Shown here: positions 49,604 to 64,000 of the stretch, piece after piece | Layout of the letters: every line of letters starts with the position of its first letter | Position numbering within the stretch: the stretch's first letter is position 1 | Source of the DNA: an uncultured Bacteroidota bacterium | GTDB lineage: Bacteria > Bacteroidota > Bacteroidia > 2-12-FULL-35-15 | Length of the DNA stretch: 64,000 nucleotides | Direction of reading: 5' to 3' | Assembly: GCA_903847205.1 (NCBI GenBank) | Contig: CAINDA010000063.1 | Location: 1 to 64,000 of the forward strand | Position numbers and translations under genes: made by a program | Notes under the pieces: model-generated | The model's input: only the letters and a program-made list of their open reading frames with translations | Told to the model about the DNA's origin: nothing | Databases searched by the model: none

Positions 49604-50353
49604 ATGATAAAAGCTGTAATAGTTGATGATGAATTAGGCGCGCGCGAATCATTATCTAAAATGATCGAAAAAAATTGTGCCGGTATTGAAATTGCTGCCA
49701 AAGCTGATTCAATGACCAGTGCTTATGATGCCATCAGCAGGTACCAGCCTGATTTAGTTTTTTTGGATATAGAAATGCCTAACGGCAATGCTTTCGACTT
49801 ACTTGAAAAATTTAAAGAAATTGATTTTGATATTATTTTCACTACTGCCTTCGACCATTATGCCATTAAAGCTATCAAGTTCAGTGCCGTTGATTATCTT
49901 CTAAAGCCCATTGACACCGAAGAGCTGGTTCAGGCAGTGCATCGTTTTGAAGATAAAGCCGGGCATAAAAGCATGCTGGATAAAAAATTCAAAACCCTTC
50001 TGGCTAACATTAAACCTGAAAACAAACTGAAAAAAGTCGGTATTCCGGACGGAGACGGCTTAATATTCATCAACCTCTCCGATATCATTCGCTGCGATTC
50101 CGACGGCAACTATACGTTTTTTATTCTCACCACAGGCAAAAGAATTATGGCCTCACGTACCCTCGGTGAATACGAGCAGATGTTTGCCGATGATAACTTC
50201 TGCAGGGTTCACCGTTCGCATCTTATCAACTTGCAGCACGTGAAAAAATATATTAAAGGCGAAGGAGGATACGTCGTAATGAGCGATAACTCCCAGGTTG
50301 AAGTCTCCAGAAGAAATAAATCTGATTTTCTTGAAAAATTATCCCTAATCTAG
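49604..50353 (+). CDS. LytTR-family response regulator
   Basis: A 249-aa regulator partner of the sensor kinase 117 nt upstream. The receiver domain (about 1-120) has D8/D9 and phosphoacceptor D55 in VFLDIEMP; the C-terminal LytTR DNA-binding domain (about 145-249) has DIIRCDSDGNYTFF, MASRTLGEYEQMF and FCRVHRSHLINLQHVKKYIKGEGGYVVMSDNSQVEVSRR. Targets are not known; the small peptide and TonB receptor downstream are possible candidates. Confidence 0.93.
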   Translation: MIKAVIVDDELGARESLSKMIEKNCAGIEIAAKADSMTSAYDAISRYQPDLVFLDIEMPNGNAFDLLEKFKEIDFDIIFTTAFDHYAIKAIKFSAVDYLLKPIDTEELVQAVHRFEDKAGHKSMLDKKFKTLLANIKPENKLKKVGIPDGDGLIFINLSDIIRCDSDGNYTFFILTTGKRIMASRTLGEYEQMFADDNFCRVHRSHLINLQHVKKYIKGEGGYVVMSDNSQVEVSRRNKSDFLEKLSLI

Positions 50354-50733
50354 TTTACCGCTTTTCGTTTAATTTCCGCCGTTAAATAAGTAAAACTCTC
50401 CTTTCACTCAATGTGTCCTGAACTTCTGTTCTTTCTATTGTAATATTGTAATAGAAATCAGGGCAGATAAAATACCAGCTGAAATTTTTTACTTCTAATT
50501 CAAACAGTCTGAAATTTACTAAACAAATTTTTTCTCTGTTTTCTTAAAAGATTCAAAAAAATAGGTGCCGGGTTTTGCCGCAAAATTAATTGGCACATGG
50601 GGATGTTGTTTAGATTAATAGGCAGATACCCGCACCTTAATTTAATATTTAATTCAATTGCAGTCTTTCACATTAATCTAACAGAAAATGGCAGAACGCT
50701 TACCTGTTATTAACAATTAAAAAATCAAAAAAA
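50354..50733 (+). other. Intergenic region with a candidate structured RNA
   Basis: No gene is supportable in this 380-bp gap. AGGTGCCGGGT (50563-50573) can pair with ACCCGCACCT (50628-50637) with one bulged C, closing a 75-nt domain. GTGCC (50565-50569) can instead pair with GGCAC (50592-50596), so two mutually exclusive stems share one strand. The domain ends 97 nt before the small open frame at 50734. Confidence 0.4.
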
Positions 50734-50859
50734 ATGAACAAGAAATCAGCAGTCCGCAAAGGGTACAGTTACCGCGAAGAAGGTATTGGAACCATTACAA
50801 TTCTAATGGCAGCAGCCACAGTAGCAATTATTTTCTTCAGCATTTACAATGCAGTATAA
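50734..50859 (+). CDS. 41-aa single-pass membrane peptide
   Basis: A short frame with an A-rich leader before the ATG (AAAAAAAATG). The product has a basic, aromatic N-terminus (MNKKSAVRKGYSYREEG) followed by about 22 hydrophobic residues (GTITILMAAATVAIIFFSIY), that is, one membrane helix with an inside-positive start. A terminator hairpin follows after 23 nt, giving a self-contained small gene. I do not recognise the family. It lies between a LytTR regulator and a large TonB receptor. Confidence 0.6.
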   Translation: MNKKSAVRKGYSYREEGIGTITILMAAATVAIIFFSIYNAV

Positions 50860-50882
50860 TTTTCAGTTTTGTTTGTTTGAGA

Positions 50883-50915
50883 AAAGCCGGTCCGGTATTA
50901 TACCGGATTGGCTTT
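50883..50915 (+). terminator. Terminator after the 41-aa gene
   Basis: AAAGCC plus GGTCCGGTA (from 50883) pair with TACCGGATT plus GGCTTT (to 50915) across TTA: about 15 bp with two G-U pairs. The T-run after the stem is short (TTTAAA). Confidence 0.75.
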
Positions 50916-51001
50916 AAACAAGTTAAAACAGGATTTTATTCCTAAAATAAATTGTTAAAAAGCGGGGAAAAAAAAACTTGCTCAAGAATTTTAAATATTC
51001 C

Positions 51002-51009
51002 TATATTTA
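51002..51009 (+). promoter_or_regulatory. Candidate promoter for the large TonB receptor
   Basis: TATATTTA matches the -7 box at 7 of 8 positions and follows a TTG (50978-50980) by 21 nt. An inverted repeat with CAATTTGAAAAT / ATTTTCAAATTG arms (51039-51073) lies between it and the start codon. Confidence 0.4.
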
Positions 51010-51104
51010 CGCGCTTTAAAATTTAGGCTTGAATAAAACAATTTGAAAATATGTTTATATAATTTTCAAATTGCCGAATTATCAAATTATCAAATTATAA
51101 TAAT

Positions 51105-54100
51105 ATGCTGCAAAAATTACTCGTTACCTTCTCGATTGTTATCGCCTCAGCTGGCTTGATGCTGGGACAAAACGAATCCGCAATTAAAGTAAAACTTACC
51201 GACAAAGCCAATAAAGAAACAATTCCATTTGCGAATGTAATTGTTGAAATGGGCGGTATGCAGGCTGGTGTAGGAACCACCAACATAGATGGTGAAGTTA
51301 CTATTAAGCCCTTAAGTCCCGGTAAGTATAATGTAAAAGCCACTTATGTGGGTTACCAGACTGTAATTATTGGAGACATAAACGTAGGCGTTGGTAAAAC
51401 TGTTTATTTGAATATGGAGTTGACTGCAGGACAGGAGCTTCCAATTATTGAAGTAGCAGTTTGGAAAGAACCACTCATTGATCCTGATACTAAATCAGGA
51501 GGAACCGTAACACGCGAAGAATACCAGCACATGGCTACTAAAGATATTAATTCAGTAGCGGCAACAACAGCAGGAATTTATCAGGCAGATGAAGGCGGAG
51601 CGCTGAATGTAAGAGGTGCCCGTGCTGAAGGGACGTCTTATTATGTGGATGGTGTAAAAGTAATCGGAAGTGCAGGTGTTCCCCAGGGATCAATTGATCA
51701 GATAACAACAATTATCGGCGGTACCCCTGCTGAATACGGAGATGCAACAGGCGGTGTTATTGCAATAACTACTCGGGGACCTGCAGCCACTTATGGCGGC
51801 GGCATAGAAATGGTATCTTCTGGTTTGGGCGAAAAAAATGCAAAGACACGCGGACTGGATGCTTATGGATATAATTTAGTTGATTTTACATTGAGCGGTC
51901 CCTTATTAACAAAAAAAGACTCTTCAAAAAATGTTAAGAAATCAGTTCTTGGTTTCTTTTTATCAGGTGAGGCTTCAACTGCTCAGGATCCCCATCCATC
52001 AGCTGTCGGTATGTACCAGGTTAAACCGGATGTATTAACCAGTTTAGAAAATGCACCTTTGCGTCCAAACCCTAATGGAGCAGGAGGTTTTGTAAATAAT
52101 GCAGAGTATATTACTATGGATGATCTGCAAAAAGTAAAATCAAGAAGCAATGTGCGTTCTAATTCATTTCTTTTGAACGGTAAAATACTTTACCAGCCTG
52201 CTGCAAATCTTGGAATTACAATTGGTGGATCGATTAATTATAATAATTACCATGATTTTGTTTACGAATATGCATTGTTTAATCCTTCAAATAATCCCCA
52301 GGTAATAAATAATACCTGGAGAGCCTACGCAAAACTTACTCAAAAGTTTAATTCAGCTACCGCTAAAGAAGAAGAGAAAACATCTTCCGCTATCACAAAT
52401 GCCTACTTTACACTTCAGGCCAGTTATTCAAAAACAAGCCAAACTGTTCAGGACGATACGCATAAGGATAATTACTTCAACTATGGGTATATCGGGAAGT
52501 TTGATCAAACTAAAACTGCCAATTATACTTATGAAACCAGAAATAAATATGACTTTAACCATGACGGTGTTAAAGATACTGTTGCTGCGTTTTATCAAAA
52601 TGGTTTCAGGGATGTAAGTCTGACATTTACTCCAAGCAACATAAATCCTGCAGGAGCAGCTTATACCAGTCAGTTTTATGCAGCCACTGATCCTGGGCTT
52701 ATCCACAACCTGAATGATGTTCAGGCTGGTTTAGGTTTGATGAACGGCGACCGGCCTTCTAACATTTATGGATTATGGTACAATACCGGCCGTCAATACG
52801 GAGGTTATAGTTTAAGTGATGTGAGCCAGTTTCGCGTGAATGCAAGTTTTTCTGCAGATATTAAAAAACATGCAGTTCAGATGGGATTTGAATTTGAGCA
52901 GCGCAGTGAAAGTGCATTTTCTCTTAGCCCTATTGCTTTATGGACTCAGATGCGTGCATTGGCAAACAGCCACCTTACCCAGTTAGACAGCGTCCCTCAT
53001 TTGAATACAGAATTATCAGGTACTTATTTGTACTATGATTTCGATCGCTTAAACGACGGCACTCAGACACAATTCGACAGAAGTTTAAGAACAGCGCTGG
53101 GTTATAATGCCAACAGCACCAACTGGATTAATGTTGATGCCTACACACCAGAGCAGATGCAGAGTTTTGGCGGACTTAAAATGTTCAGTGCAGATGATTT
53201 ATTAAACCTGGGCGGTACAGCCTTAGTAAGTTATTACGGATATGATCACACTGGAACAAAAATAAGCGGAAAACCAAGCTTAGATGATTTCTTTACCAAG
53301 AAAGATGCAAATGGAAATTTCACCCGCCAAGTTGGAGCCTATCAGCCTATTTATGTAGCAGGCTATATCCAGGATAAATTTGATTTTAAAGATGTGAAAT
53401 TTAATATCGGTCTGCGTATTGATAGGTTTGATGCAAATCAGCAGGTACTAAAAGATAAGTTTTTGCTGTATGAAGCCAAAACTGCAGGTGAAGTAAACTT
53501 TGCTTCTGAGTTTAATACTACCAAACCCGCAAATATTGGGAGTGATTATGTAGTTTATGTTAATGATAAAGACAACCCCACAAAAGTTGTTGGTTACAGA
53601 AACGGGACTACATGGTATAACGCTACTGGAGCAGAAGTTTCTGACCCAACCTCGTCATTAGCAGGTTCAAATACTGTCGATGGTGCTATTAATCCTTATT
53701 TGTTAGATCCCTCAGCTGCAAAAAACAAAGTGATTTCTTCAAAAGTATTTGAAAGTTATACGCCTCAGATTAATTTGATGCCGCGTATTGCATTTTCATT
53801 CCCAATTTCCGATGTCGCTGATTTTTTTGCTCATTATGATGTGTTAACACAGCGTCCTCCCGGCGCAAACAGGTTAGACCCTACGCAGTATTTGAATATT
53901 ACTAGTAATGCAGGACAGTTTATTAATAACCCAAATTTAAAACCAGAAAGGACGACTGATTATGAGTTAGGATTCCGCCAGGTATTAAACGACAAGAAAA
54001 ATTCTGCAATTACCTTATCTGCATTTTACCGTGAATTAAGAGATATGATCCAAGTGGTGCAGGTGGTTGATGCCTTCCCTAATAGTTATAATTCCTATGA

Positions 54101-54893
54101 TAATATTGACTTTGGTACAGTTAAAGGTTTTTCAATTGCTTATGATTTAAGGAGGTTATCAAGCGGGGTTCAGCTGAGCGCAAATTATACTTTGTCGTTT
54201 GCCGATGGAACTGGTTCAAGCGCTACTGACGGTGTTAACTTAGTAGCTGTAGGTCAGCCTAATCTTAGAACTACGCACCCTTTAGATTACGATCAGCGTC
54301 ACACTGTGATAATTAATACTGATTATCGTTTTGGCGCAGGTAAAGATTATAACGGGCCGGTATGGACCCGCCATAAAGGAACTGATAAAGAAAAATCTGT
54401 AAAAATATTTGAAAATATAGGAGCCAATATTGTTGCAAGAGCAGGTTCTGGAACTCCTTACAGCAGACAGAAAAATATTACTCAAGGTGACCCGACTTCT
54501 GGAAATGTTGTGATAGGAGTTGCACAGCGCAGCCAGCTTGCAGGTATGGTTAATGGTTCCAATCTGCCTTGGAATTTTAAAATTGATTTAAAAGTTGACA
54601 AAGATTTTGATCTTACATGGTCTGGCAAAGACGGCGGAGAAAAGAAACATGCCAGCTTAAATATTTATTTGCAGGTATTAAATGTTTTAAATGCAGTTAA
54701 CATTCTTAATGTTTACAAAGCTACAGGAAACCCGGGCGATGATGGTTATTTAGCTTCTGCTGACGGGCAGAATGCTCTTGCAAGCAAAAACAGCGCAGCA
54801 TCTTTTACCGATTTATATTCCATAAAAGTAAATGACCCTAATTATTACAGTCAGCCGCGTGTTATCCGCTTAGGTTTGGTACTGGGTTTTTAA
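51105..54893 (+). CDS. Large TonB-dependent receptor with carboxypeptidase-like domain
   Basis: A 1262-aa outer-membrane receptor. Signal peptide MLQKLLVTFSIVIASAGLMLGQ; carboxypeptidase-regulatory-like sandwich (about 28-105; VKLTDKANKETIPFANVIVE, YVGYQTVIIGDI); plug domain (about 120-230; GGALNVRGARAEGTSYYVDGVKV, GGTPAEYGDATGGVIAITT); long beta-barrel ending in RVIRLGLVLGF with terminal Phe, as outer-membrane barrels do. No SusD-like partner follows. Instead a 21-bp minisatellite, a T9SS-tailed protein and a PorV-like protein follow, so it may serve a T9SS-linked function rather than glycan uptake. Confidence 0.94.
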   Translation: MLQKLLVTFSIVIASAGLMLGQNESAIKVKLTDKANKETIPFANVIVEMGGMQAGVGTTNIDGEVTIKPLSPGKYNVKATYVGYQTVIIGDINVGVGKTVYLNMELTAGQELPIIEVAVWKEPLIDPDTKSGGTVTREEYQHMATKDINSVAATTAGIYQADEGGALNVRGARAEGTSYYVDGVKVIGSAGVPQGSIDQITTIIGGTPAEYGDATGGVIAITTRGPAATYGGGIEMVSSGLGEKNAKTRGLDAYGYNLVDFTLSGPLLTKKDSSKNVKKSVLGFFLSGEASTAQDPHPSAVGMYQVKPDVLTSLENAPLRPNPNGAGGFVNNAEYITMDDLQKVKSRSNVRSNSFLLNGKILYQPAANLGITIGGSINYNNYHDFVYEYALFNPSNNPQVINNTWRAYAKLTQKFNSATAKEEEKTSSAITNAYFTLQASYSKTSQTVQDDTHKDNYFNYGYIGKFDQTKTANYTYETRNKYDFNHDGVKDTVAAFYQNGFRDVSLTFTPSNINPAGAAYTSQFYAATDPGLIHNLNDVQAGLGLMNGDRPSNIYGLWYNTGRQYGGYSLSDVSQFRVNASFSADIKKHAVQMGFEFEQRSESAFSLSPIALWTQMRALANSHLTQLDSVPHLNTELSGTYLYYDFDRLNDGTQTQFDRSLRTALGYNANSTNWINVDAYTPEQMQSFGGLKMFSADDLLNLGGTALVSYYGYDHTGTKISGKPSLDDFFTKKDANGNFTRQVGAYQPIYVAGYIQDKFDFKDVKFNIGLRIDRFDANQQVLKDKFLLYEAKTAGEVNFASEFNTTKPANIGSDYVVYVNDKDNPTKVVGYRNGTTWYNATGAEVSDPTSSLAGSNTVDGAINPYLLDPSAAKNKVISSKVFESYTPQINLMPRIAFSFPISDVADFFAHYDVLTQRPPGANRLDPTQYLNITSNAGQFINNPNLKPERTTDYELGFRQVLNDKKNSAITLSAFYRELRDMIQVVQVVDAFPNSYNSYDNIDFGTVKGFSIAYDLRRLSSGVQLSANYTLSFADGTGSSATDGVNLVAVGQPNLRTTHPLDYDQRHTVIINTDYRFGAGKDYNGPVWTRHKGTDKEKSVKIFENIGANIVARAGSGTPYSRQKNITQGDPTSGNVVIGVAQRSQLAGMVNGSNLPWNFKIDLKVDKDFDLTWSGKDGGEKKHASLNIYLQVLNVLNAVNILNVYKATGNPGDDGYLASADGQNALASKNSAASFTDLYSIKVNDPNYYSQPRVIRLGLVLGF

Positions 54894-54984
54894 TCTAAAT
54901 GATCTGAAAATAGATCAATCATTCATTTGAAAGCCTAAAAAAAACAGGCAAAAGATAAGTGAGGATTAAGAAAAGGGAAATGAA

Positions 54985-55362
54985 GATCGGGAAAAGGGAA
55001 ATGAAGATCGAGAAAAGGGAAATGAAGATCGAGAAAAGGGAAATGAAGATCGGGAAAGGGGAAATGAAGATCGAGAAAAGGGAAGTGAAGATCGAGAAAA
55101 TGGAAATGATGATCGGGAAAACGTAAATGAAGATCGAGAAAACGTAAATGATGATCGAGAAAAGGGAAGTGAAGATCGAGAAAAGGGAAATGATGATCGG
55201 GAAAACGTAAATGAAGATCGAGAAAAGGGAAGTGAAGATCGAGAAAATGGAAATCAAGATCGGGAAAATGGAAATGAAGATCGGGAAAAGGGAAGTAAAG
55301 ATCGAGAAAACGTAAATGATGATCAAGAAAGGGTAAGTGATGAATGGGAAAAGGGAAATGAA
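54985..55362. repeat. 18-copy 21-bp purine-rich minisatellite
   Basis: GATCGRGAAAAGGGAAATGAA-type units start at 54985 and every 21 bp after (17 with GATC, one diverged), without a single insertion or deletion. Nearly all bases on the plus strand are purines. Units fall into subtypes (AAAGGG, AAATGG, AACGTA) arranged in higher-order order. A plus frame of G-N-E-D-R-E-K heptads is open but lacks a start; a minus frame is open but very hydrophobic. I treat it as non-coding. Confidence 0.9.
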
Positions 55363-55440
55363 GTGTTAATGTTGAAAAAATACAATAAATATTTAACGTA
55401 GAATATATTTTAAAAAACTATGCATATTAAAATAACAAAA

Positions 55441-58400
55441 ATGAAAGCAAACTATATTTATCGAATCATTCCCTGCTCATTATTGGTCACTCTTTTTTTC
55501 TCCTCTATTATTTTCAATGGGGCAGGTGGAGATCTCTCGGCAAGAGAAAATATAGGCGGAAGTAACCTGCCTGTTTCAAATCACCTGGTAAAATCAGTTG
55601 AGTCGGGTTGTATCAATGCAACGGCTCAGGCTGATTTGGATATAAACAGCGTAAGAGCTAAAATATTAAACGGAGGTGATATGTGGTGGGATATTTTCGG
55701 CGCTCAGAATGCTGCTTATGCTGTTCCAAAACCGCCTGTAGGACAGATTGGCCCCAGCTCTCAATTTGCAAGTTCAGTTTGGGTAGGGGGATATGATGCC
55801 GGTGGACAATTAAAAGTAGCCGCCCAGACTTACCGTCAAAGCGGAAACGATTATTGGCCGGGACCCTTGACTTCTACTGCAACAACTGATCCAGCAACTT
55901 GTATTGCCTGGGATAAATTTTATAAAATCAACAGGGCTGATGTGGAAACATATTACAATTGGGTTGCACTCGGCTCAAATGGAGCTAATCCGCTTCTTTC
56001 CGGCCAGGCAACTTTATCAAATGCAATGGATGTAATTAATAATTGGCCGGCTTACGGCCCGGAAGGACAGCCATTAGCACCATATTATGATGTAAATAAT
56101 GACGGCATTTATGATCCGGCTGCAGGTGACGTTCCTGATTTTGATATTACTGGTACACGCGGCTGCGCGGCTAAACTATACGGCGACCAATGTTTATTCT
56201 GGGTATTTAATGATAAAGGAAATATCCATACTGAAACTGGCGGTGCCTCTATCGGCCTTGAAGTTCAGGCGCAGGCTTTCGCATTTGCTACAAATGACGA
56301 ATTGAATAATGCAACATTTTTAAAATATAAAATCATTAATAAATCATCTTTTCGTCTTGATTCAACTTTTTTTGGAATTTGGGATGATGCCGACTTAGGT
56401 TTTTATATGGATGATTATGTTGGCTGCGATGTTGGTTTAGGACTTGGTATTCTTTATAACGGAACCGCCATAGACGGCAGCGGGCAGGCAACCGCTTACG
56501 GTGCTAACCCTCCTGCAATCGGCGTTGACTTTTTTGAAGGACCTTTCGCAGATCCTGACGGGCATGATAACGCTGCTTCCAGCGTTCCTTCGAGCTTCTT
56601 GAATTACGGCGATGGTATTGCTGATAATGAGCGCCTGGGTATGTGTAAGTTTATGTATTTTGAAAACACGTCAAGTGCAGTGAATGGGAATCCAATGCCG
56701 GGTGATGACCATTATCAATACTTGACCGGAACTTGGCGTAACGGTACCGGAATTACTTATGGCGGAAATGGAACGTCAGGTTCTGTGAGATGTAACTATA
56801 TGTTCCCTGGTTTATCGGATCCTTCCGGCTTTGGAGTAGGCGGTACTTTAAATAACCCCATTACAATGCCTAATTGGGATATGGTTAGTTCAAGCATTGT
56901 GCCTAATGATATGAGATTTTTGGAAAGTTCAGGGCCATTTACTTTACAGCCGGGCGCTGTTAATGTGATAACTGTTGGTGTTCCTTGGGCAAGAGCTACA
57001 CAGGGCGGGCCGCTTGCATCTGTGGCCCTTTTGAAAGGCGCTGACGCGAAAGCGCAGCTGTTGTTTAACAACTGCTTCGCAACTACTAACGGGCCCACAG
57101 CACCTGCATTAACAATACAAGAATTGAACAGGCAGTTAATCCTTACGTGGACTAATCCGGTTAATTCAAATAATTATAATGAAAGTTATTCAGAGGATTA
57201 TGATAAGGCAAATCCTAACAATTTACCTTATACTTTTCAGGGATACCAGTTGTATCAGTTAAGAGATGGGTTTGTTACGCAAGCTGATTTGTATAATGTT
57301 GATAAAGCTCGTTTGGTAATGCAGTGTGATAAAGTGGATGGTATTTCTCAGATTGTTAATTATACAAATGATGTTACTATATCAGCTTTGGTGCCACAGG
57401 AAATGGTAAACGGTTCCAACAAAGGTATTGTTCATTCAGTTTCTCTTTCAGATGATTTATTTGCAACCGGAACGGATGCAAGGCTCGTGAATCATAAAAC
57501 TTATTATTACGCGATAATAGCTTATGGTTTCAGCCAGTCTTTGGTTCCTACTAATTTTGGATCTCTTCAGGATTACAAACCATATATTGCCGGAAGAAAA
57601 TGTGCTGATTTCCCTGTGTTTACTCCTCATCCGGGTATTCCCCATATCCCTGCTCCAGAAGCTGAGGGCACAGTGCAGCAGTCGAACTATGGCAGCGGTC
57701 CTAAATTAACTCGCATAGAAGGAAGCGGTAATGGTGCAAATGTGCTTGATTTTACCAGCGAAACCGTTGATGCTATTTTTGCTGACCCTGAATGGAAAGT
57801 AAAAAATCCTGTTTATGAAAATGGTAAAGGTCCTGTTACAATTAAAGTGATTGACCCTTTGAATGTTCCCGCAGCAACAAACTTTCGTTTTATTATGAAA
57901 GCTAAATATCCTGTTACCGGCGTAGCTGCATTTATTCCACAGGATTCTTCTCGATGGGAGTTAATTAATTTAAATACCGGCGAATCGGTGAATTCAGATT
58001 CATCTATAATAATTCCGAATGAACAATTGATTAACGGGCAGAATACAGGCAGTATTGCAATAATACCTAAATGGGGCTTATCTGTAAATGTAAGATTTGC
58101 ATACAGCCCTGGTCCTACAAGGATTGTAGTTAATGGAACTCCGCCTAATACCACAACTTCATATTTTTATGATGAACCTAATAATGCTTTTCAGGAAGCA
58201 ACTATGACTTTTTCTGATCCATCAAAACAATGGTTAACTGGTGTTCCTGATCAGGATGGCACAAATGACCAAAATTGGATTCGTGCTGGTACACAAACAT
58301 TTCCTGCACCAAATGCTATTTTTGGAGATGACCAAAACGGGCTTGACAACGAGCAGCATTATGAAAAAGTTTTAGGCGGTACCTGGGCTCCTTACAGGCT

Positions 58401-59742
58401 GTGCGCTGCTTCTGCGACAACAATTCCGAATCCTATTGTATGTTCCGGCGGACCGGCTTGGGCAACTAATCTTAATGTGAATAAAATTAAAAATGTATCA
58501 AGCATTGATGTTGTAATAACACGCGATAAATCGAAATGGACGCGCTGTCCGGTGCTTGAAATGCAGGAAGAGCCTGCGTTGGCTATTGGAAATATAAAAA
58601 AATTAAATATGCGCAGTTCTCTTTCTGTAGATCAGAACGGCGTGCCTGCTATTGCAGGAAGCGGCAGCAGTACAAATAAAAATGATCCGAATTTCAATGG
58701 CGAAACAGGTATGGGTTGGTTTCCTGGATATGCAATCAATCTTGAAACCGGTGAGAGACTTAATATGGCTTTTGGGGAAGACTCCTGGTTAGCATCTGAA
58801 AATGGTGCAGACATGAAATGGAATCCAACGGCAACAGACTTTTCATATCCAAATTTTGCAACGATATTCGGGGGCAAGCATTATATTTATGTGTTTGGTC
58901 ATAATGGGAACGGTCTTTTTAATGGGGATACTTATATGGGTAACGGCTTCAGAGATCTGCCGAGTTATGATGAAGGCAAAGCGATGCGTGCATTAATGGC
59001 TGCAGTGCAGGCCGGTGCAGGCGACGGGTACAAGCGTGAAGTATTTAAAGATGCCATGTGGGTCAATATCCCATTGCTGTCCCCAATGTTCCCGCATCTT
59101 AAACTGCCTGAAGATATGCCTTCTGATGTTAAAGTTAGGCTGCGTGTTACAAAGGCTTATTCTAAATTTGGAACAGGCAATCAGGTTTCTTCCGGTTCTC
59201 TTGTTACCGGCAGCACCTATTTTGTTGAGAGCGGACCAATAACTCACAACGCAGTAAGTGTAGCTGCAGGTGCTACTTTTGTTGCTGCGAATGCTTCATG
59301 GACGTCTTCAGCAGCAAATGCCTCAGTATTGTCAACGGTAAACAATGCAGACCCAATTTATGAATTTAATACTTCAGATATTGGGACAATTAAAGCGGAT
59401 GCAGCAACTGCTAAAAGCGCGCTTGACTTGATTAACATAGTACCGAATCCTTATTATGCATATTCAGCTTATGAAGTTAAGACAAGCGATAATATTGTAA
59501 AAATTACTAATCTGCCTAGTAATTGCACCATTTCAATTTACACTTTAAAAGGAACGCTTATCAGAACACTTCAAAAAAATGACGGTGATGCAAAAGCTTC
59601 AGTGGATTGGGATTTGAAAAATCAAGCCAGAATACCTATTGCCAGCGGTTTATACATTATCGATGTAAGCGTGCCCAATGTAGGCGAAAAAATATTAAAA
59701 TGGTTTGGCGTAATGCGTCCTTTGGATTTGGAAGCATATTAA
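55441..59742 (+). CDS. Large exported protein with T9SS type A sorting tail
   Basis: I start at ATG 55441 after an A-rich leader; a start at 55420 is possible and adds seven residues. The 1433-aa product has a signal peptide (IPCSLLVTLFFSSIIFNGAGG), a long region I do not recognise with a Ca-binding-like DVNNDGIYDPAAGD loop near residue 220, several sandwich-like segments, and a C-terminal tail (about the last 85 residues, NPYYAYSAYEVK to GLYIIDVSVPNVGEKILKWFGV) typical of T9SS C-terminal domains. Cargo of T9SS is secreted across the outer membrane and often surface-attached. The function of the body is unknown. Confidence 0.82.
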   Translation: MKANYIYRIIPCSLLVTLFFSSIIFNGAGGDLSARENIGGSNLPVSNHLVKSVESGCINATAQADLDINSVRAKILNGGDMWWDIFGAQNAAYAVPKPPVGQIGPSSQFASSVWVGGYDAGGQLKVAAQTYRQSGNDYWPGPLTSTATTDPATCIAWDKFYKINRADVETYYNWVALGSNGANPLLSGQATLSNAMDVINNWPAYGPEGQPLAPYYDVNNDGIYDPAAGDVPDFDITGTRGCAAKLYGDQCLFWVFNDKGNIHTETGGASIGLEVQAQAFAFATNDELNNATFLKYKIINKSSFRLDSTFFGIWDDADLGFYMDDYVGCDVGLGLGILYNGTAIDGSGQATAYGANPPAIGVDFFEGPFADPDGHDNAASSVPSSFLNYGDGIADNERLGMCKFMYFENTSSAVNGNPMPGDDHYQYLTGTWRNGTGITYGGNGTSGSVRCNYMFPGLSDPSGFGVGGTLNNPITMPNWDMVSSSIVPNDMRFLESSGPFTLQPGAVNVITVGVPWARATQGGPLASVALLKGADAKAQLLFNNCFATTNGPTAPALTIQELNRQLILTWTNPVNSNNYNESYSEDYDKANPNNLPYTFQGYQLYQLRDGFVTQADLYNVDKARLVMQCDKVDGISQIVNYTNDVTISALVPQEMVNGSNKGIVHSVSLSDDLFATGTDARLVNHKTYYYAIIAYGFSQSLVPTNFGSLQDYKPYIAGRKCADFPVFTPHPGIPHIPAPEAEGTVQQSNYGSGPKLTRIEGSGNGANVLDFTSETVDAIFADPEWKVKNPVYENGKGPVTIKVIDPLNVPAATNFRFIMKAKYPVTGVAAFIPQDSSRWELINLNTGESVNSDSSIIIPNEQLINGQNTGSIAIIPKWGLSVNVRFAYSPGPTRIVVNGTPPNTTTSYFYDEPNNAFQEATMTFSDPSKQWLTGVPDQDGTNDQNWIRAGTQTFPAPNAIFGDDQNGLDNEQHYEKVLGGTWAPYRLCAASATTIPNPIVCSGGPAWATNLNVNKIKNVSSIDVVITRDKSKWTRCPVLEMQEEPALAIGNIKKLNMRSSLSVDQNGVPAIAGSGSSTNKNDPNFNGETGMGWFPGYAINLETGERLNMAFGEDSWLASENGADMKWNPTATDFSYPNFATIFGGKHYIYVFGHNGNGLFNGDTYMGNGFRDLPSYDEGKAMRALMAAVQAGAGDGYKREVFKDAMWVNIPLLSPMFPHLKLPEDMPSDVKVRLRVTKAYSKFGTGNQVSSGSLVTGSTYFVESGPITHNAVSVAAGATFVAANASWTSSAANASVLSTVNNADPIYEFNTSDIGTIKADAATAKSALDLINIVPNPYYAYSAYEVKTSDNIVKITNLPSNCTISIYTLKGTLIRTLQKNDGDAKASVDWDLKNQARIPIASGLYIIDVSVPNVGEKILKWFGVMRPLDLEAY

Positions 59743-59761
59743 AAAAAATTGCGAAGGATGA

Positions 59762-59797
59762 TTTTTGCCTGCAGACAAAACTGCCGGCAGGCAAAAA
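59762..59797. repeat. Inverted repeat in the gap before the PorV-like gene
   Basis: TTTTTGCCTGC (59762-59772) is inverted exactly at 59787-59797, with CTGCCGGCAG in the loop side. The T-run is in the left arm and paired, so it is not a standard terminator. Confidence 0.65.
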
Positions 59798-59827
59798 TCA
59801 GAAATTCGAAATCATAAACAATCAGCT

Positions 59828-60907
59828 ATGAAAAAACAATATACTTTATTTGCATCTATTGCCTTGATAGGCTTTTTTGTACTGCCTTCCGGTAGGGTTC
59901 TGGGAGGTAATCCTGACCGCGCTGCACAGGCAGGAGCTTCAGAATTATTAATTAATCCATGGGCACGTAGTTCCGGATGGGCTGATGCAAATACTGCTGG
60001 GGTTCACGGATTAGAGGCATTGTATGGAAATGTGGCCGGTACAGCTTTTACCAAAAAAACGGAGATATTGCTTTCCAACACCCAATGGTTAAAAGGCAGC
60101 GATATAAATATTAATTCTTTTGGGTTAACTCAAAGGGTAGGTGAGACGGGTGCTTTGGGAGTAGCTATTATGGCTATGAATTTCGGGAAAATAAATGTTA
60201 CAACAGTTGATCAGCCCGAAGGAGGATTAGGTACTTATTCGCCCCAGTTTTTAAATATTACTTTATCTTATGCTAAAGGGTTTTCAGATAATATTTTTGG
60301 AGGATTGGCCGCTAAAGTAATTACAGAGAAAACGTCTAACATAAGTTCAAGAGGATTTGCTTTGGACGGCGGTATTCAATATGTTGCAGGTAAACAAGAT
60401 CAATTGAAATTTGGTATTTCTTTGAAAAATGTCGGGCCTAGAATGACTTTCACAGGTGATGGTTTATCATTTAAAACCCCTGTGCCTTCAAGTACTCAGA
60501 ACAACACTATGACTGTAGATCAGCGCTCAGCTGACTTTGAGCTTCCCTCTTTACTTAACATTGGCGGAGGTTACGATTTTTATTTGAAAAAGGACAGTAT
60601 TTCAATGAAGACCAATAGAATAACAGTTATGGGAACTTTTACCTCTAATTCTTTTGAAAAAGATCAGTTTAAATTGGGTGTGGAATACGGCTGGAAAAAT
60701 ATTCTGATGCTGCGTGCAGGTTATGCTTATGAAACAGGTATTTTAAATTCAACAGGCAGAACTTCGGCATATACCGGGGCAAGCGCAGGATTTACATTTG
60801 AAATACCGTTTGGGAAAAATAAATCTACATTTGGTTTAGATTATTCATATAGGGCTACTAATCCTTTTAATGGAACACATTCAATAGGGGCCAGAATAAA
60901 CTTATAA
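59828..60907 (+). CDS. PorV/PorQ-family outer-membrane barrel protein
   Basis: From ATG 59828 the protein starts MKKQYTLFASIALIGFFVLPSG, a signal peptide; a start at 59765 adds 21 residues derived from the upstream hairpin region. The mature protein (about 335 aa) opens with GASELLINPWARSSGWADANTAGVHGLEALYGNVAGTAF, the signature of PorV/PorQ-like proteins, and continues as amphipathic strands to SIGARINL. PorV escorts T9SS cargo at the outer membrane. Following a T9SS-tailed protein directly, it is likely a dedicated partner of that cargo. Confidence 0.85.
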   Translation: MKKQYTLFASIALIGFFVLPSGRVLGGNPDRAAQAGASELLINPWARSSGWADANTAGVHGLEALYGNVAGTAFTKKTEILLSNTQWLKGSDININSFGLTQRVGETGALGVAIMAMNFGKINVTTVDQPEGGLGTYSPQFLNITLSYAKGFSDNIFGGLAAKVITEKTSNISSRGFALDGGIQYVAGKQDQLKFGISLKNVGPRMTFTGDGLSFKTPVPSSTQNNTMTVDQRSADFELPSLLNIGGGYDFYLKKDSISMKTNRITVMGTFTSNSFEKDQFKLGVEYGWKNILMLRAGYAYETGILNSTGRTSAYTGASAGFTFEIPFGKNKSTFGLDYSYRATNPFNGTHSIGARINL

Positions 60908-60969
60908 TAATTCTGTTTTTATTTGGATTTTTATAGTCCGATTCAAAACTGACTTTACCGAAAAAATCT

Positions 60970-61025
60970 TATATTTGCACGTATGAAGAGAGTTTTCCCA
61001 AGGAGAATTCTCTTCATGTTTTTTA
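60970..61025 (+). promoter_or_regulatory. greA leader: promoter box, 16-bp hairpin and T-run
   Basis: TATATTTG (60970-60977) is an exact -7 box. From 60983 to 61017 the sequence forms a 16-bp hairpin with a CAA loop (two G-U pairs), followed by G and six T residues (61019-61024). A 17-codon frame, MKRVFPRRILFMFFINA, starts at the base of the hairpin (60983) and stops at 61036. The greA ATG is at 61047. Confidence 0.75.
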
Positions 61026-61046
61026 TTAATGCTTAAATTAAAAATA

Positions 61047-61520
61047 ATGGCACAGATATCTTATTTTACTAAAGAGGGATTAAAAAGACTGAGTGACGAG
61101 CTGCATCAATTAAAAACGCATGAGCGTTCATATATTTCCAAACAGATTGCAGAAGCACGTGATAAAGGCGACTTGTCTGAAAACGCTGAATATGATGCTG
61201 CCAAGGAAGCTCAGGGGTTGTTAGAACTTAAAATTTCTAAATTGGAAGAAGTAATGAGCAGCGCCAGGCTGATTGATGAATCAACATTAGATGTATCAAA
61301 AGTACTTATCTTATCAAAAGTGAAAATTAAAAATTCTGCTAATGGCGCGGTTACAACCTATACACTTGTGGCAGAAAATGAAGCAGATTTAAAAGCAGGT
61401 AAAATATCCGTTGACTCCCCAATAGGAAAAGGATTGCTGGGAAAAAAAGCCGGTGAAACTGCCGACATAAAAGTTCCTTCCGGTACTATTAAATTTGAAG
61501 TGGTTGAAATATCGAGGTAG
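61047..61520 (+). CDS. greA: Transcription elongation factor GreA
   Basis: A 158-aa factor that enters the RNA polymerase secondary channel and stimulates cleavage of backtracked RNA. The N-terminal coiled coil runs from about 10 to 75, with the acidic tip in ARDKGDLSENAEYDAAKEAQG; the C-terminal FKBP-like domain includes SPIGKGLLGKKAGETADIKVPSG. I choose ATG 61047 (MAQISYFTKEGLKRL) because homologs begin there; ATG 61029 adds six residues that arise from the leader. Followed by a HIT protein 162 nt downstream. Confidence 0.95.
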   Translation: MAQISYFTKEGLKRLSDELHQLKTHERSYISKQIAEARDKGDLSENAEYDAAKEAQGLLELKISKLEEVMSSARLIDESTLDVSKVLILSKVKIKNSANGAVTTYTLVAENEADLKAGKISVDSPIGKGLLGKKAGETADIKVPSGTIKFEVVEISR

Positions 61521-61682
61521 GTTAAATTAGAGAAATGAAGAATTAGAGAATTGGAAAAAAATTCTGGATTTATTTATTAATTTCAAGAATTTATGCATAA
61601 TCCAATTCTATAACTCTCCAAATCACAAAATCCCCAACTCCTAAATTCTCCAAACCTCTAAATCAACAATTCTCCAATTTAT
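61521..61682. repeat. Reiterated-word repeat between greA and the HIT gene
   Basis: A left block (GAATTAGAGAATTGG words, about 61533-61556) faces a right block of inverted words (CCAATTCTATAACTCTCC to ACAATTCTCCAATTT, about 61600-61680). Same type of architecture as the repeats at 12.8 and 41.6 kb but made of different words. Confidence 0.65.
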
Positions 61683-62087
61683 ATGGCAAGCATCTTTTCC
61701 AAAATAGTAAGCGGAGAAATTCCCTCTCATAAAATTTTAGAGAACGAAAAATTTCTTGCGTTTTTAGATGTTTTTCCGCTAGTTCATGGTCATATTTTAG
61801 TTATCCCTAAAATAGAAATTGATTATATTTTTGATATGGATGATGCGGATTTGGCTGAAATGATGCTGTTTGCAAAGGATGTTGCAAAAGCACAGAAGGC
61901 GGCTGTTCCTTGTAAACGCATCGGCATTGCGATAATTGGTTTAGAAGTGCCTCATGCACACATTCATTTAGTGCCGATGAATACTGCAAATGATGTTAAT
62001 TTTACGCAGCCAAAATTGAAACCTTCGCAGGAAGAGTTAAGCGGGATGGCTTTAAAAATTCGTTCCTTATTAAAGGTAAATATTTAA
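61683..62087 (+). CDS. HIT family nucleotide-binding protein
   Basis: A 134-aa protein of the Hint branch. It opens SIFSKIVSGEIPSHKILENEKFLAFLD, has HGHILVIPK, and the catalytic histidine triad in GLEVPHAHIHLVPM. Hint proteins hydrolyse nucleoside phosphoramidates. Length is normal and all catalytic histidines are present. Probably read from its own promoter or from greA. The physiological substrate is not known. Confidence 0.93.
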   Translation: MASIFSKIVSGEIPSHKILENEKFLAFLDVFPLVHGHILVIPKIEIDYIFDMDDADLAEMMLFAKDVAKAQKAAVPCKRIGIAIIGLEVPHAHIHLVPMNTANDVNFTQPKLKPSQEELSGMALKIRSLLKVNI

Positions 62088-62164
62088 TTCTGCAATTGTA
62101 AGGAGGTATAGGTTTTAATAACGAAATTCAATTCACAAATTCTCCGATTTTTCGAACTCTCCGA

Positions 62165-62722
62165 TTACCCTTTCTTATTTGGGTTCTCAGCTAAAAAAGC
62201 TTTCCAGCCGCTGTATGTTTTTTCAGCAGTGCCTGGCTTCCGCTGAAAGTGATGGCACACAGCCGCAGCTAAAGCATCTGTAGCATCTAAAAACTCGGGA
62301 GTTTCCTTAAAGTTTAAAAGTGTTTTTAACATGGCAGCAACCTGTTCTTTTGAAGCATTTCCGCTGCCTGTAATGGATTGTTTTATTTTTTTGGGGGAAT
62401 ATTCCTGTATCGGTATGTTTCTTGAAAGAGCACCTGCAATAGCCACTCCCTGCGCCCTTCCTAATTTAAGCATGGATTGAACATTTTTTCCGAAGAAAGG
62501 TGCTTCAATTGATAACTCATCCGGCTTATATTCGTCAATTAAAGATATAACACGGTTAAATATTTTTTGAAGCTTTAATGCGTGGTCTCCCACTTTTTCA
62601 AGACGCAGCACACCCATCACAATAAGTTCCATCTTACTGCCTTTGATATGTATAAGCCCATAGCCCATGATGTTGGTGCCAGGGTCGATTCCTAAAATAA
62701 TTTTATCGGTTGTTTTCGTAAT
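62165..62722 (-). CDS. ruvC: Holliday-junction resolvase RuvC, probable ATT start
   Basis: RuvC cuts Holliday junctions with RuvAB. Catalytic residues are the N-terminal Asp in ILGIDPGTN, Glu in [11 protein letters not shown], and acidic residues in [15 protein letters not shown]. Starting at the first ATG (62668) would remove the essential first Asp. The frame is open upstream to a stop at 62732-62734, and in that stretch there is no ATG, GTG or TTG. An ATT at 62722 gives (M)[14 protein letters not shown], which matches where homologs start. I therefore annotate ATT as the start; a sequencing or genuine mutation is the alternative. Confidence 0.85.
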
Positions 62723-62734
62723 CCTAAAATTTTA

Positions 62735-63071
62735 GTGCTGACAAATAAATAGTCCTGCAAAGTTATAAGTCTTTTGAAATGGAACATTTTTATTCTTCCT
62801 TAAACTCGGCCAGCTCTTGATTAATAATAAAATACCTATTCTGTAATGTAAATAGTACCGCCCGTCAGTTGTTTTGCAAAATTTGTCTTATTATAACCAG
62901 AATAGAATAATTATTGATTTTTTGTTATTATTTTTAACCGCATCTTATTTTAAAATAGGAGAAGGGAAAATTGTTTTGCCGTCCATTTAATTTACATTTT
63001 ATATTTATTGATTACCGGATTGATGGACGCTTACTTCAATTCTTTATGGAATGGCTGATAACATTGGATGA
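62735..63071. other. Divergent intergenic region between ruvC and the ABC permease
   Basis: 337 bp without a supportable gene. Minus-strand TAACTTTG (62758-62765) is an exact -7-type box 36 nt before the ruvC ATT. CTAAAATTTTAG (62724-62735) is a perfect 12-bp palindrome directly 5' of that ATT. CGTCCAT is inverted as ATGGACG about 40 nt further on (around 62982 and 63023). Confidence 0.55.
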
Positions 63072-64000
63072 ATGACTAAAAAGGAAGAAAAATATTATTC
63101 ATTAACATATTTTGCATGGCAGCGGTTTAAAAAAAACAAACTTGCTATGTTTGGTTTAATCGTTATTTGTTTGTGCATGGTGATGGCGGCTTTAGGTTTT
63201 GCAATCACTCCTGATTCAACCCCTGATGCAAACGACCAGCTGCTTGAACTTTCGAAAAAACGCCCAGGGTTTAAAGTTCAGATGCTTGAAGTCCGCAAAA
63301 ATGAGGCATCCCATCACGTTAATATTTTTTCAAAAATGCTTTTCGGTGAAGTAAGCGATTACCGTTCCATCCCTTTTTCGAGTTATAAATTTGACGGCAA
63401 TGATATTGTTTTAACTGAATATACAGGCGAGGATAAGCGCCCCGGGGCAGATTTTAAATTTAACCTGGCAGATGTTGTTTACCCGGTAAACACTGCTTCT
63501 ATTGAAAATAATGCAGAGAAGGGGTATGTTGAATTTAATGAATTGGGCAGCATTAAAAAAACAAGAAAGACTGCAAAAGAATTACAAATTGAAATAGAGA
63601 AAAATAATATAATAACTAAAAAATTTATTCTGGGTACTGATCCCGCAGGACGGGATTTGTTAAGCCGGCTGATGATAGGCACCAGAGTTTCGTTTTCTGT
63701 CGGCTTTACTGCTGTATTTATTTCGGTAATTATTGGGATTTTAATGGGAGCCCTGGCTGGCTATTACAGGGGCTGGGTAGATGATATTATTATTTGGTTT
63801 ATAAATGTAGTTTGGTCGGTGCCGACATTACTGCTTGTTATTGCAATTACGCTTGCACTCGGAAAAGGCTTTTGGCAGGTGTTTATTGCTGTAGGTTTAA
63901 CGATGTGGGTTGAAGTGGCACGTGTAATCCGCGGGCAGATTATGAGCCTTCGTGAAATGGAATTTATTGAAGCGGGGAGGGCTTTAGGGTTTACAAATTT
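63072..64000 (+). CDS. Oligopeptide/dipeptide ABC transporter permease, OppC/DppC type (3' end outside window)
   Basis: The frame begins MTKKEEKYYSLTYFAWQRFKKNKLAMFGLIVICLCMVM and runs off the right edge after about 309 residues. A first membrane helix (about 25-50) is followed by a 120-residue periplasmic insert, then FILGTDPAGRDLLSRLMIGTRVSFSVGF, several membrane helices, and the ATPase-contact loop EAGRALGFTN. This is OppC/DppC; the long insert after helix 1 is common in Bacteroidota. The partner permease and ATPases are not in the window. Confidence 0.9.
   Translation, partial: MTKKEEKYYSLTYFAWQRFKKNKLAMFGLIVICLCMVMAALGFAITPDSTPDANDQLLELSKKRPGFKVQMLEVRKNEASHHVNIFSKMLFGEVSDYRSIPFSSYKFDGNDIVLTEYTGEDKRPGADFKFNLADVVYPVNTASIENNAEKGYVEFNELGSIKKTRKTAKELQIEIEKNNIITKKFILGTDPAGRDLLSRLMIGTRVSFSVGFTAVFISVIIGILMGALAGYYRGWVDDIIIWFINVVWSVPTLLLVIAITLALGKGFWQVFIAVGLTMWVEVARVIRGQIMSLREMEFIEAGRALGFTN

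Follow-up and report, generated by a model that had tools for sequence, protein, structure and literature searches.

In Escherichia coli, about one third of greA transcripts are reported to pass an intrinsic terminator in the gene's leader, GraL, from which short RNAs of 37-59 nt are described, and catalytically active GreA is reported to repress its own gene through this leader in vivo (PMC6829880). In vitro, by the same report, GraL termination is unaltered by GreA and an accessory factor is invoked (PMC6829880), which leaves the mechanism unsettled in E. coli as well, together with how cells set the level of a factor that serves the rescue, fidelity, and proofreading of transcription. A greA/rnk family of 5' terminators was predicted in 2010 in Proteobacteria, bacilli, and Clostridia (Naville and Gautheret, PMC2965389), ranking seventh among the 5'-terminator families of that study, which cites an earlier one. 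The main text of that paper, which covers 302 species, contains neither 'Bacteroidetes' nor 'Bacteroides', and the main text of a Bacteroides thetaiotaomicron transcription start site paper does not name greA; among the open-licence PMC papers listed in our literature searches, none appeared to report a Bacteroidota greA leader. Transcription control is little studied in Bacteroidota.

Here we report the anatomy, conservation, covariation, and greA specificity of a leader hairpin in an uncultured Bacteroidota bacterium, starting from a stretch of 64,000 nucleotides (contig CAINDA010000063.1 of assembly GCA_903847205.1; hereafter the window). The hairpin is likely to be an intrinsic terminator in the greA leader with a function like that of GraL in E. 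coli, a reading we hold with good though not full confidence and in which promoter use, termination, read-through, and feedback are all predicted. Leader terminators of greA are already known; what appears to be new is the Bacteroidota-wide form, in which the hairpin starts at about +1 to +3 and leaves no room for an antiterminator.

Anatomy of the greA leader

An earlier note on this window had described a terminator-like hairpin of 16 bp with a 3-nt loop and six T's, 22 nt upstream of the greA ATG, and a sequence at 60970-60977 that would fit the greA promoter. The hairpin is there with every coordinate exact, and so is the promoter-like sequence, a TAnnTTTG box whose role as a promoter is predicted. 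The features are as follows.

59765-60907, + strand: gene for a PorV/PorQ family protein, upstream of and co-directional with greA (NCBIfam NF033709, 142.7 bits)
60970-60977, + strand: -7 box TAnnTTTG (TATATTTG), the predicted greA promoter, read from the sequence and of the Bacteroidota sigma-A type
60982-60983, + strand: predicted transcription start (+1), placed from the position of the box
60982-61018, + strand: terminator hairpin including an outer U-G pair, from the sequence, folding, and the genus covariance model
60983-60998 and 61002-61017, + strand: hairpin core of 16 pairs including G-U pairs, with a 3-nt loop at 60999-61001, from the sequence
60983-61036, + strand: 17-codon frame MKRVFPRRILFMFFINA, whose start lies in the left arm, judged incidental
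61019-61024, + strand: U-tract of six T, from the sequence; RNA 3' ends predicted at about 61024-61027
61025-61046, + strand: A-rich spacer of 22 nt to the greA ATG, from the sequence, with no recognisable second promoter
61047-61520, + strand: greA, transcription elongation factor GreA, 157 aa (NCBIfam NF001263, 180.4 bits; TIGR01462, 173.4 bits)

As read from the sequence, one extra U-G pair (60982/61018) lengthens the stem beyond the 16-bp core. The fold of 60960-61060 has an energy of -25.4 kcal/mol, where dinucleotide shuffles average -13.6 (z -3.96) and none of 200 folds as well; the hairpin by itself accounts for -21.1 kcal/mol. The leader has the structure of an intrinsic terminator, a stable G-C-containing hairpin with a U-tract immediately 3' of it. 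In a simple scan of 50000-64000 this hairpin (18 pairs counted) is the longest among 12 terminator-like sites, the number of sites being uninformative alone since the same scan yields a mean of 12.3 in shuffles.

The GreA protein has a single match in the 5.49-Mb genome at E 0.001. An alternative in-frame ATG at 61029 would add 6 codons, and the alignment of relatives supports the start at 61047. D42 and E45 are invariant among 21 aligned GreA sequences; from our reading of the motif, we take them to be the catalytic acidic pair, equivalent to E. coli D41/E44.

Position of the predicted promoter

A transcription start map of F. psychrophilum gives the TAnnTTTG consensus at -12 to -5 (PMC9723704), which places +1 in the window at 60982, or at 60983 by the preference for A. 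In the base pattern around the box, A occupies the predicted +1 in 60% of 108 same-class leaders, which A60983 fits. In the window, the predicted +1 falls on the hairpin's first base or the next one. Among exact-box leaders, the median distance from box to hairpin is 6 nt in the genus and 5 nt in the class, putting the hairpin at about +3 or +2; from the predicted start to the hairpin, the median is 1-2 nt and the 90th percentile about 5 nt.

Among 52 leaders that were selected for T, an exact TAnnTTTG lies directly upstream of the hairpin in 38 (45 with one mismatch allowed) and between the hairpin and the ATG in none. A one-mismatch box does occur between hairpin and ATG in 11 of the 52, which counts against a start in front of the hairpin. 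Taken together, the leader comparison supports the earlier proposal that transcription begins at or upstream of the hairpin: greA transcripts very probably begin with the hairpin or immediately ahead of it and have to cross it.

Comparison with known leaders

The closest described system is GraL (PMC6829880, RF01769), which the Bacteroidota leader resembles in having an intrinsic terminator shortly after the promoter (predicted here), before greA and on the same strand, in the full-length greA mRNA that reads through, or here would read through, the terminator, and in the GreA with its acidic pair encoded downstream. The short RNA predicted here from the box position and the U-tract would be about 42-46 nt, within the size range described for GraL (PMC6829880). 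The geometry is different: from the E. coli promoter P1, as described, the terminator lies about 19 nt after +1 and the ATG at +150, whereas the predicted positions here are about +1 to +3 and about +65. Short RNAs from P2 are given as 12 nt shorter, which by our arithmetic puts that start about 7 nt before the hairpin and narrows the difference. The promoters also differ, being sigma-70 and sigma-E in E. coli (PMC6829880) and TAnnTTTG, by prediction, here. Given the predicted start, a segment corresponding to the GraL feedback segment (+1 to +18 from P1) is absent 5' of the terminator in exact-box leaders. In E. coli MG1655 we located the GraL hairpin at -131 to -103, with an RF01769 match of 127.5 bits; this model of the Enterobacteria greA leader has no match above its gathering score in the window or in 20 named Bacteroidota loci, and weak matches to Rfam models (E of 0.13 or more) were discarded as far below gathering scores. 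The parallel with GraL drawn in the earlier note holds up in layout and predicted RNA size and has to be widened, since greA leader terminators are not confined to E. coli.

The greA leaders of Naville and Gautheret likewise have a conserved 5' terminator before greA, found by place and not by sequence, and differ in that a clear antiterminator is described in each case (PMC2965389), whereas here there is almost no 5' sequence. Judged from the predicted +1, no transcribed sequence 5' of the stem is available to form one.

Conservation across Bacteroidota

Leaders were collected from 57 of 59 relatives, the window's genome included (34 of the genus and 23 others of the same class), from 80 named loci, and from a phylum draw of 118 genomes. 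The named loci, mostly Flavobacteriales with a few Cytophagales by their titles, are taken to belong to the window's class; L059-L062 were dropped before counting as duplicate contigs, and the remaining 76 together with the 23 relatives make up a further same-class set of 99. The phylum draw gave 60 leaders, 25 of the same class and not already in the set and 35 of 89 from other classes, hand-picked to spread over families. Start codons were set by a simple rule, and some, for example that of L051, are probably wrong. Outside Bacteroidota one locus, that of E. coli, was compared.

A conserved 5' terminator upstream of greA, as in the leaders of Naville and Gautheret, was found in 178 of 193 leaders as a terminator-like hairpin with a T-tract, against totals of 17-27 in five shuffled versions; 15 leaders fail the test. 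By set, the hairpin is present in 34/34 genus leaders, 20/23 other same-class relatives, 67/76 named loci, 25/25 leaders of the class draw, and 32/35 of the other classes, where shuffles give 4-9 of 35 and a separate estimate expects 7.8. Among the 57 leaders of the relatives and the window, 51 have in their last 110 nt a best hairpin that outdoes every one of 20 shuffles. In leaders unselected for T, the median number of T after the outermost G-C pair is 9 in nt 1-12, part of them sitting in A-U pairs of the stem, and 3 in nt 13-24, and the first stretch exceeds the second in 29/29 genus and 78/84 other same-class leaders.

A stricter architecture test required an exact box, a hairpin starting 0-16 nt later, and at least 5 T in 8. 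It is passed by 29/34 genus leaders, 66/99 further same-class leaders, and 15/25 same-class leaders of the phylum draw, with 0-1 shuffles passing per set; altogether, 110 of 158 same-class leaders pass and 48 fail. With one box mismatch allowed the numbers rise to 32/34, 79/99, and 19/25, and those of the shuffles to as many as 5, 10, and 3. A terminator between the promoter (predicted) and the start codon is therefore found in the window's class, whereas only 3 of 35 leaders from other classes show the exact pattern, so that the promoter is no more than putative there. From the distribution of the hairpin, many greA messages across the phylum probably end early at a stop signal in the leader.

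In two leaders of family f21 the layout is different: L053 has a short hairpin (-8.9 kcal/mol) 32 nt behind the -7 box, which leaves a 5' segment as in E. coli, and L178 resembles it. By eye, tandem hairpins with T-rich tails stand between the -7 box and greA in L114, L131, and L087 (two Aequorivita and a MAG).

Pairing in the stem

Conservation of the stem in the greA leaders of related genomes, a check suggested in the earlier note, was examined in two alignments; the stem is conserved and its pairing kept. In the genus alignment (A1, 33 of 34 genus leaders, with the misaligned rows L024, L026, L030, and L032 counting against pairing), 93.5% of pair cells are standard and the covariation is 0.399, compared with 0.229 after shuffling and 0.105-0.200 after sliding. 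Fifty cells changed on both sides (shuffled mean 17.4), and 7 pairs contain both-side changes, a number reached by 52 of 500 shuffles. Flavobacteriales-type leaders have a different stem, AAATCCCGT..AYGGGATTT. Their alignment (A3) started from 42 leaders in which an exact box and a short hairpin with a CCCG, CCCA, or CTCG stem had been flagged; L073, L076, L127, L132, L161, L168, and L182 were dropped as near-duplicates or for different stems, a choice that leans towards pairing and leaves 35. In these, 95.9% of cells are paired, and the covariation is 0.236, compared with 0.176 shuffled and 0.021-0.103 slid. Only 2 pairs changed on both sides there, a number that 326 of 500 shuffles reach, so support from this group is moderate. 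The alignment lists leave out L018, L053, L054, L056, and L058 and the hairpin-less L051 and L052. Between further families the stem sequences differ strongly. These comparisons suggest that the sequence of the stem changes while its pairing is kept.

A G-U pair is frequent in the stem, in 26 of 33 genus leaders (A1 columns 36-64) and 20 of 35 Flavobacteriales-type leaders (A3 columns 27-37), and would weaken a hairpin formed from the opposite strand. We also considered a conserved role as a trans-acting small RNA and set it aside, as the alignments hold no conserved unpaired stretch besides the -7 box and the tail.

Specificity for greA

Terminator-like hairpins ending 10-75 nt before a start codon are common, occurring at 9 of the window's 48 ORFs of at least 80 aa and, in a congener stretch of 400 kb, at 64 of 268 ORFs, and in both stretches an exact TAnnTTTG directly upstream of such a hairpin is found at greA only. 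Around loci L003-L158, a set that includes the congener stretch and leaves out four duplicates, the exact test picks out 5 of 565 ORFs other than greA, one of the five being a second greA leader copy, and with one box mismatch allowed it picks out 33.

A covariance model of the genus leaders ranks the greA hairpin best in the window's genome, at 60.5 bits with the next match at 38.6, the window's own sequence having been a row of the model. The greA leader is the best match of this model, R1, in all 22 genus genomes searched that have a greA match, though the majority of the leaders had gone into building R1 and match by construction. A dispersed regulon of such hairpins was rejected: the nine weaker R1 matches inspected, among the matches listed (4 of 10 others in the window's genome and 5 in congeners), either resemble ordinary 3' terminators or are not close to a start codon.

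A proposed mechanism and its control

We propose that greA would be transcribed from the -7 box at 60970-60977, the RNA beginning at or within a few nt of the hairpin's first base, and that RNA polymerase, about 42-46 nt into the transcript, would encounter an intrinsic terminator with all its parts. A considerable fraction of the transcripts would stop there as a short hairpin RNA, the remainder would read through into greA, and the leader terminator would in this way set the amount of GreA. With the start codon behind the termination point, the terminator would be either a fixed brake or one that is tuned by way of the polymerase or of a protein bound to the hairpin. With almost no RNA 5' of the hairpin, no upstream antiterminator can form, and control, if there is any, must work by way of the transcribing polymerase and the factors associated with it, or of a protein that recognises the hairpin as it emerges. 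GreA itself would be the most plausible controller, in a feedback repression such as that reported for E. coli GraL; by this analogy, and given a working terminator, we put GreA feedback on its leader at somewhat under an even chance.

The leader terminator could instead answer to NusA, NusG, Rho, NTP or ppGpp levels, or a hairpin-binding protein, or be an unregulated low-level brake, an alternative to which we give a real but minority weight. The sequence holds no pointer to GreA as effector, the G-U pair common in the stem in both alignments would also suit this alternative, and a precedent exists in the rimP leader, a short terminator without visible antiterminator that likewise stands before an operon holding an elongation factor gene and for which a protein reader, probably NusA, has been proposed (PMC2965389). 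The rimP leader as described there differs from the greA leaders in its conserved GGGc..gCCC stem, given for Firmicutes and Gammaproteobacteria (PMC2965389), whereas greA stems here vary by family; this wide variation argues against one sequence-specific binder throughout the phylum. In E. coli, moreover, the effect is reported to need catalytic GreA, and Hfq and the Nus factors are in the authors' belief excluded (PMC6829880).

Returning to control by GreA, a more specific version is a 'minimal' attenuator across the phylum, whose leader consists of a terminator starting at about +1 and no more, with the transcribing polymerase as sensor and active GreA deciding the outcome at the U-tract. 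The level of active GreA would clear backtracked or paused states at the U-tract and so determine whether the polymerase terminates or reads into greA. We offer this version tentatively and think it rather unlikely to be right in full. A circuit reduced to promoter, hairpin, U-tract, and gene would allow a clean test of whether GreA alters intrinsic termination. By analogy, many bacteria may ration GreA with a leader brake like that of E. coli; if so, taken with E. coli, bacilli, and Clostridia, self-metering of greA by its own terminator would be general and repeatedly kept, and would set the cell's capacity for transcript cleavage.

Other readings of the hairpin

It is improbable, in our estimate, that the hairpin is solely the 3' terminator of the upstream gene and has the greA promoter in front of it by chance. 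In the window the PorV-family gene runs in the same direction as greA and stops 75 nt short of the hairpin, which may double as its terminator; over all loci, too, the most frequent neighbour (89 loci) is a co-directional ORF whose end is no more than 150 nt away. With one box mismatch or fewer, however, the architecture persists in 63 of the 88 loci whose closest upstream ORF (60 aa or longer) reads in the opposite direction, so the hairpin is not just the terminator of a neighbouring gene. It also persists in 9 of the 18 loci with a co-directional ORF that stops farther than 150 nt away. This tally covers 195 loci including E. coli, with L059-L062 counted as lacking the architecture, and its upstream ORFs were called mechanically, so that some may not be genes. 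The placement of the exact box, directly before the hairpin in 38 of 52 leaders and in none between hairpin and ATG, also speaks against this reading.

Hairpins at or near the 5' end of an mRNA are classic stabilisers, and the leader hairpin, being stable and at or near the predicted 5' end, would fit such a role. We doubt strongly, however, that it chiefly guards the greA mRNA against decay and that the T-rich stretch is incidental: a T-tract is superfluous for a stabiliser, yet T is concentrated just behind the stem (the medians of 9 and 3 given above), and the E. coli greA leader terminator is reported to terminate (PMC6829880).

The 17-codon frame described in the earlier note does exist, starting in the left arm and ending 10 nt before greA, but it is not conserved: of the 29 genus leaders with the exact architecture, 4 (L001, L005, L016, and L024) have an ATG frame of at least 8 codons that begins with the first bases of the hairpin, and we judge the frame incidental. 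Ribosome-mediated attenuation through this frame, which would be leaderless if +1 is 60983, is very improbable, for although any ATG frame of at least 8 codons within 25 nt of the box is fairly common (10/29 genus, 28/66 further same-class, and 7/15 phylum-draw leaders), no conserved short frame over the terminator was found among the genus leaders, and many other frames begin in the loop or right arm and are dictated by the stem, such as MGFFLF from ATGGGATTTTTT.

Neighbours of greA

In one relative (L005; G033:C9:7657-7752) a second piece of greA, a 32-residue start fragment with its own copy of the leader hairpin, lies upstream of the intact gene and, by eye, adjoins a porV-like frame, a partial tandem duplication that is either real or an assembly error. 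In the window, the motif 'attctcc' and near copies of it recur, by eye, 3' of greA (61521-61682) and 3' of a HIT-family gene (62088-62164). A HIT-like gene following greA in L085, L088, L090, L115, L122, L124, L135, and L136 is preceded by a one-mismatch box and a terminator-like hairpin ending 20-35 nt before its start, as seen among the 25 of 33 one-mismatch matches printed; these hairpins are probably 3' terminators of greA.
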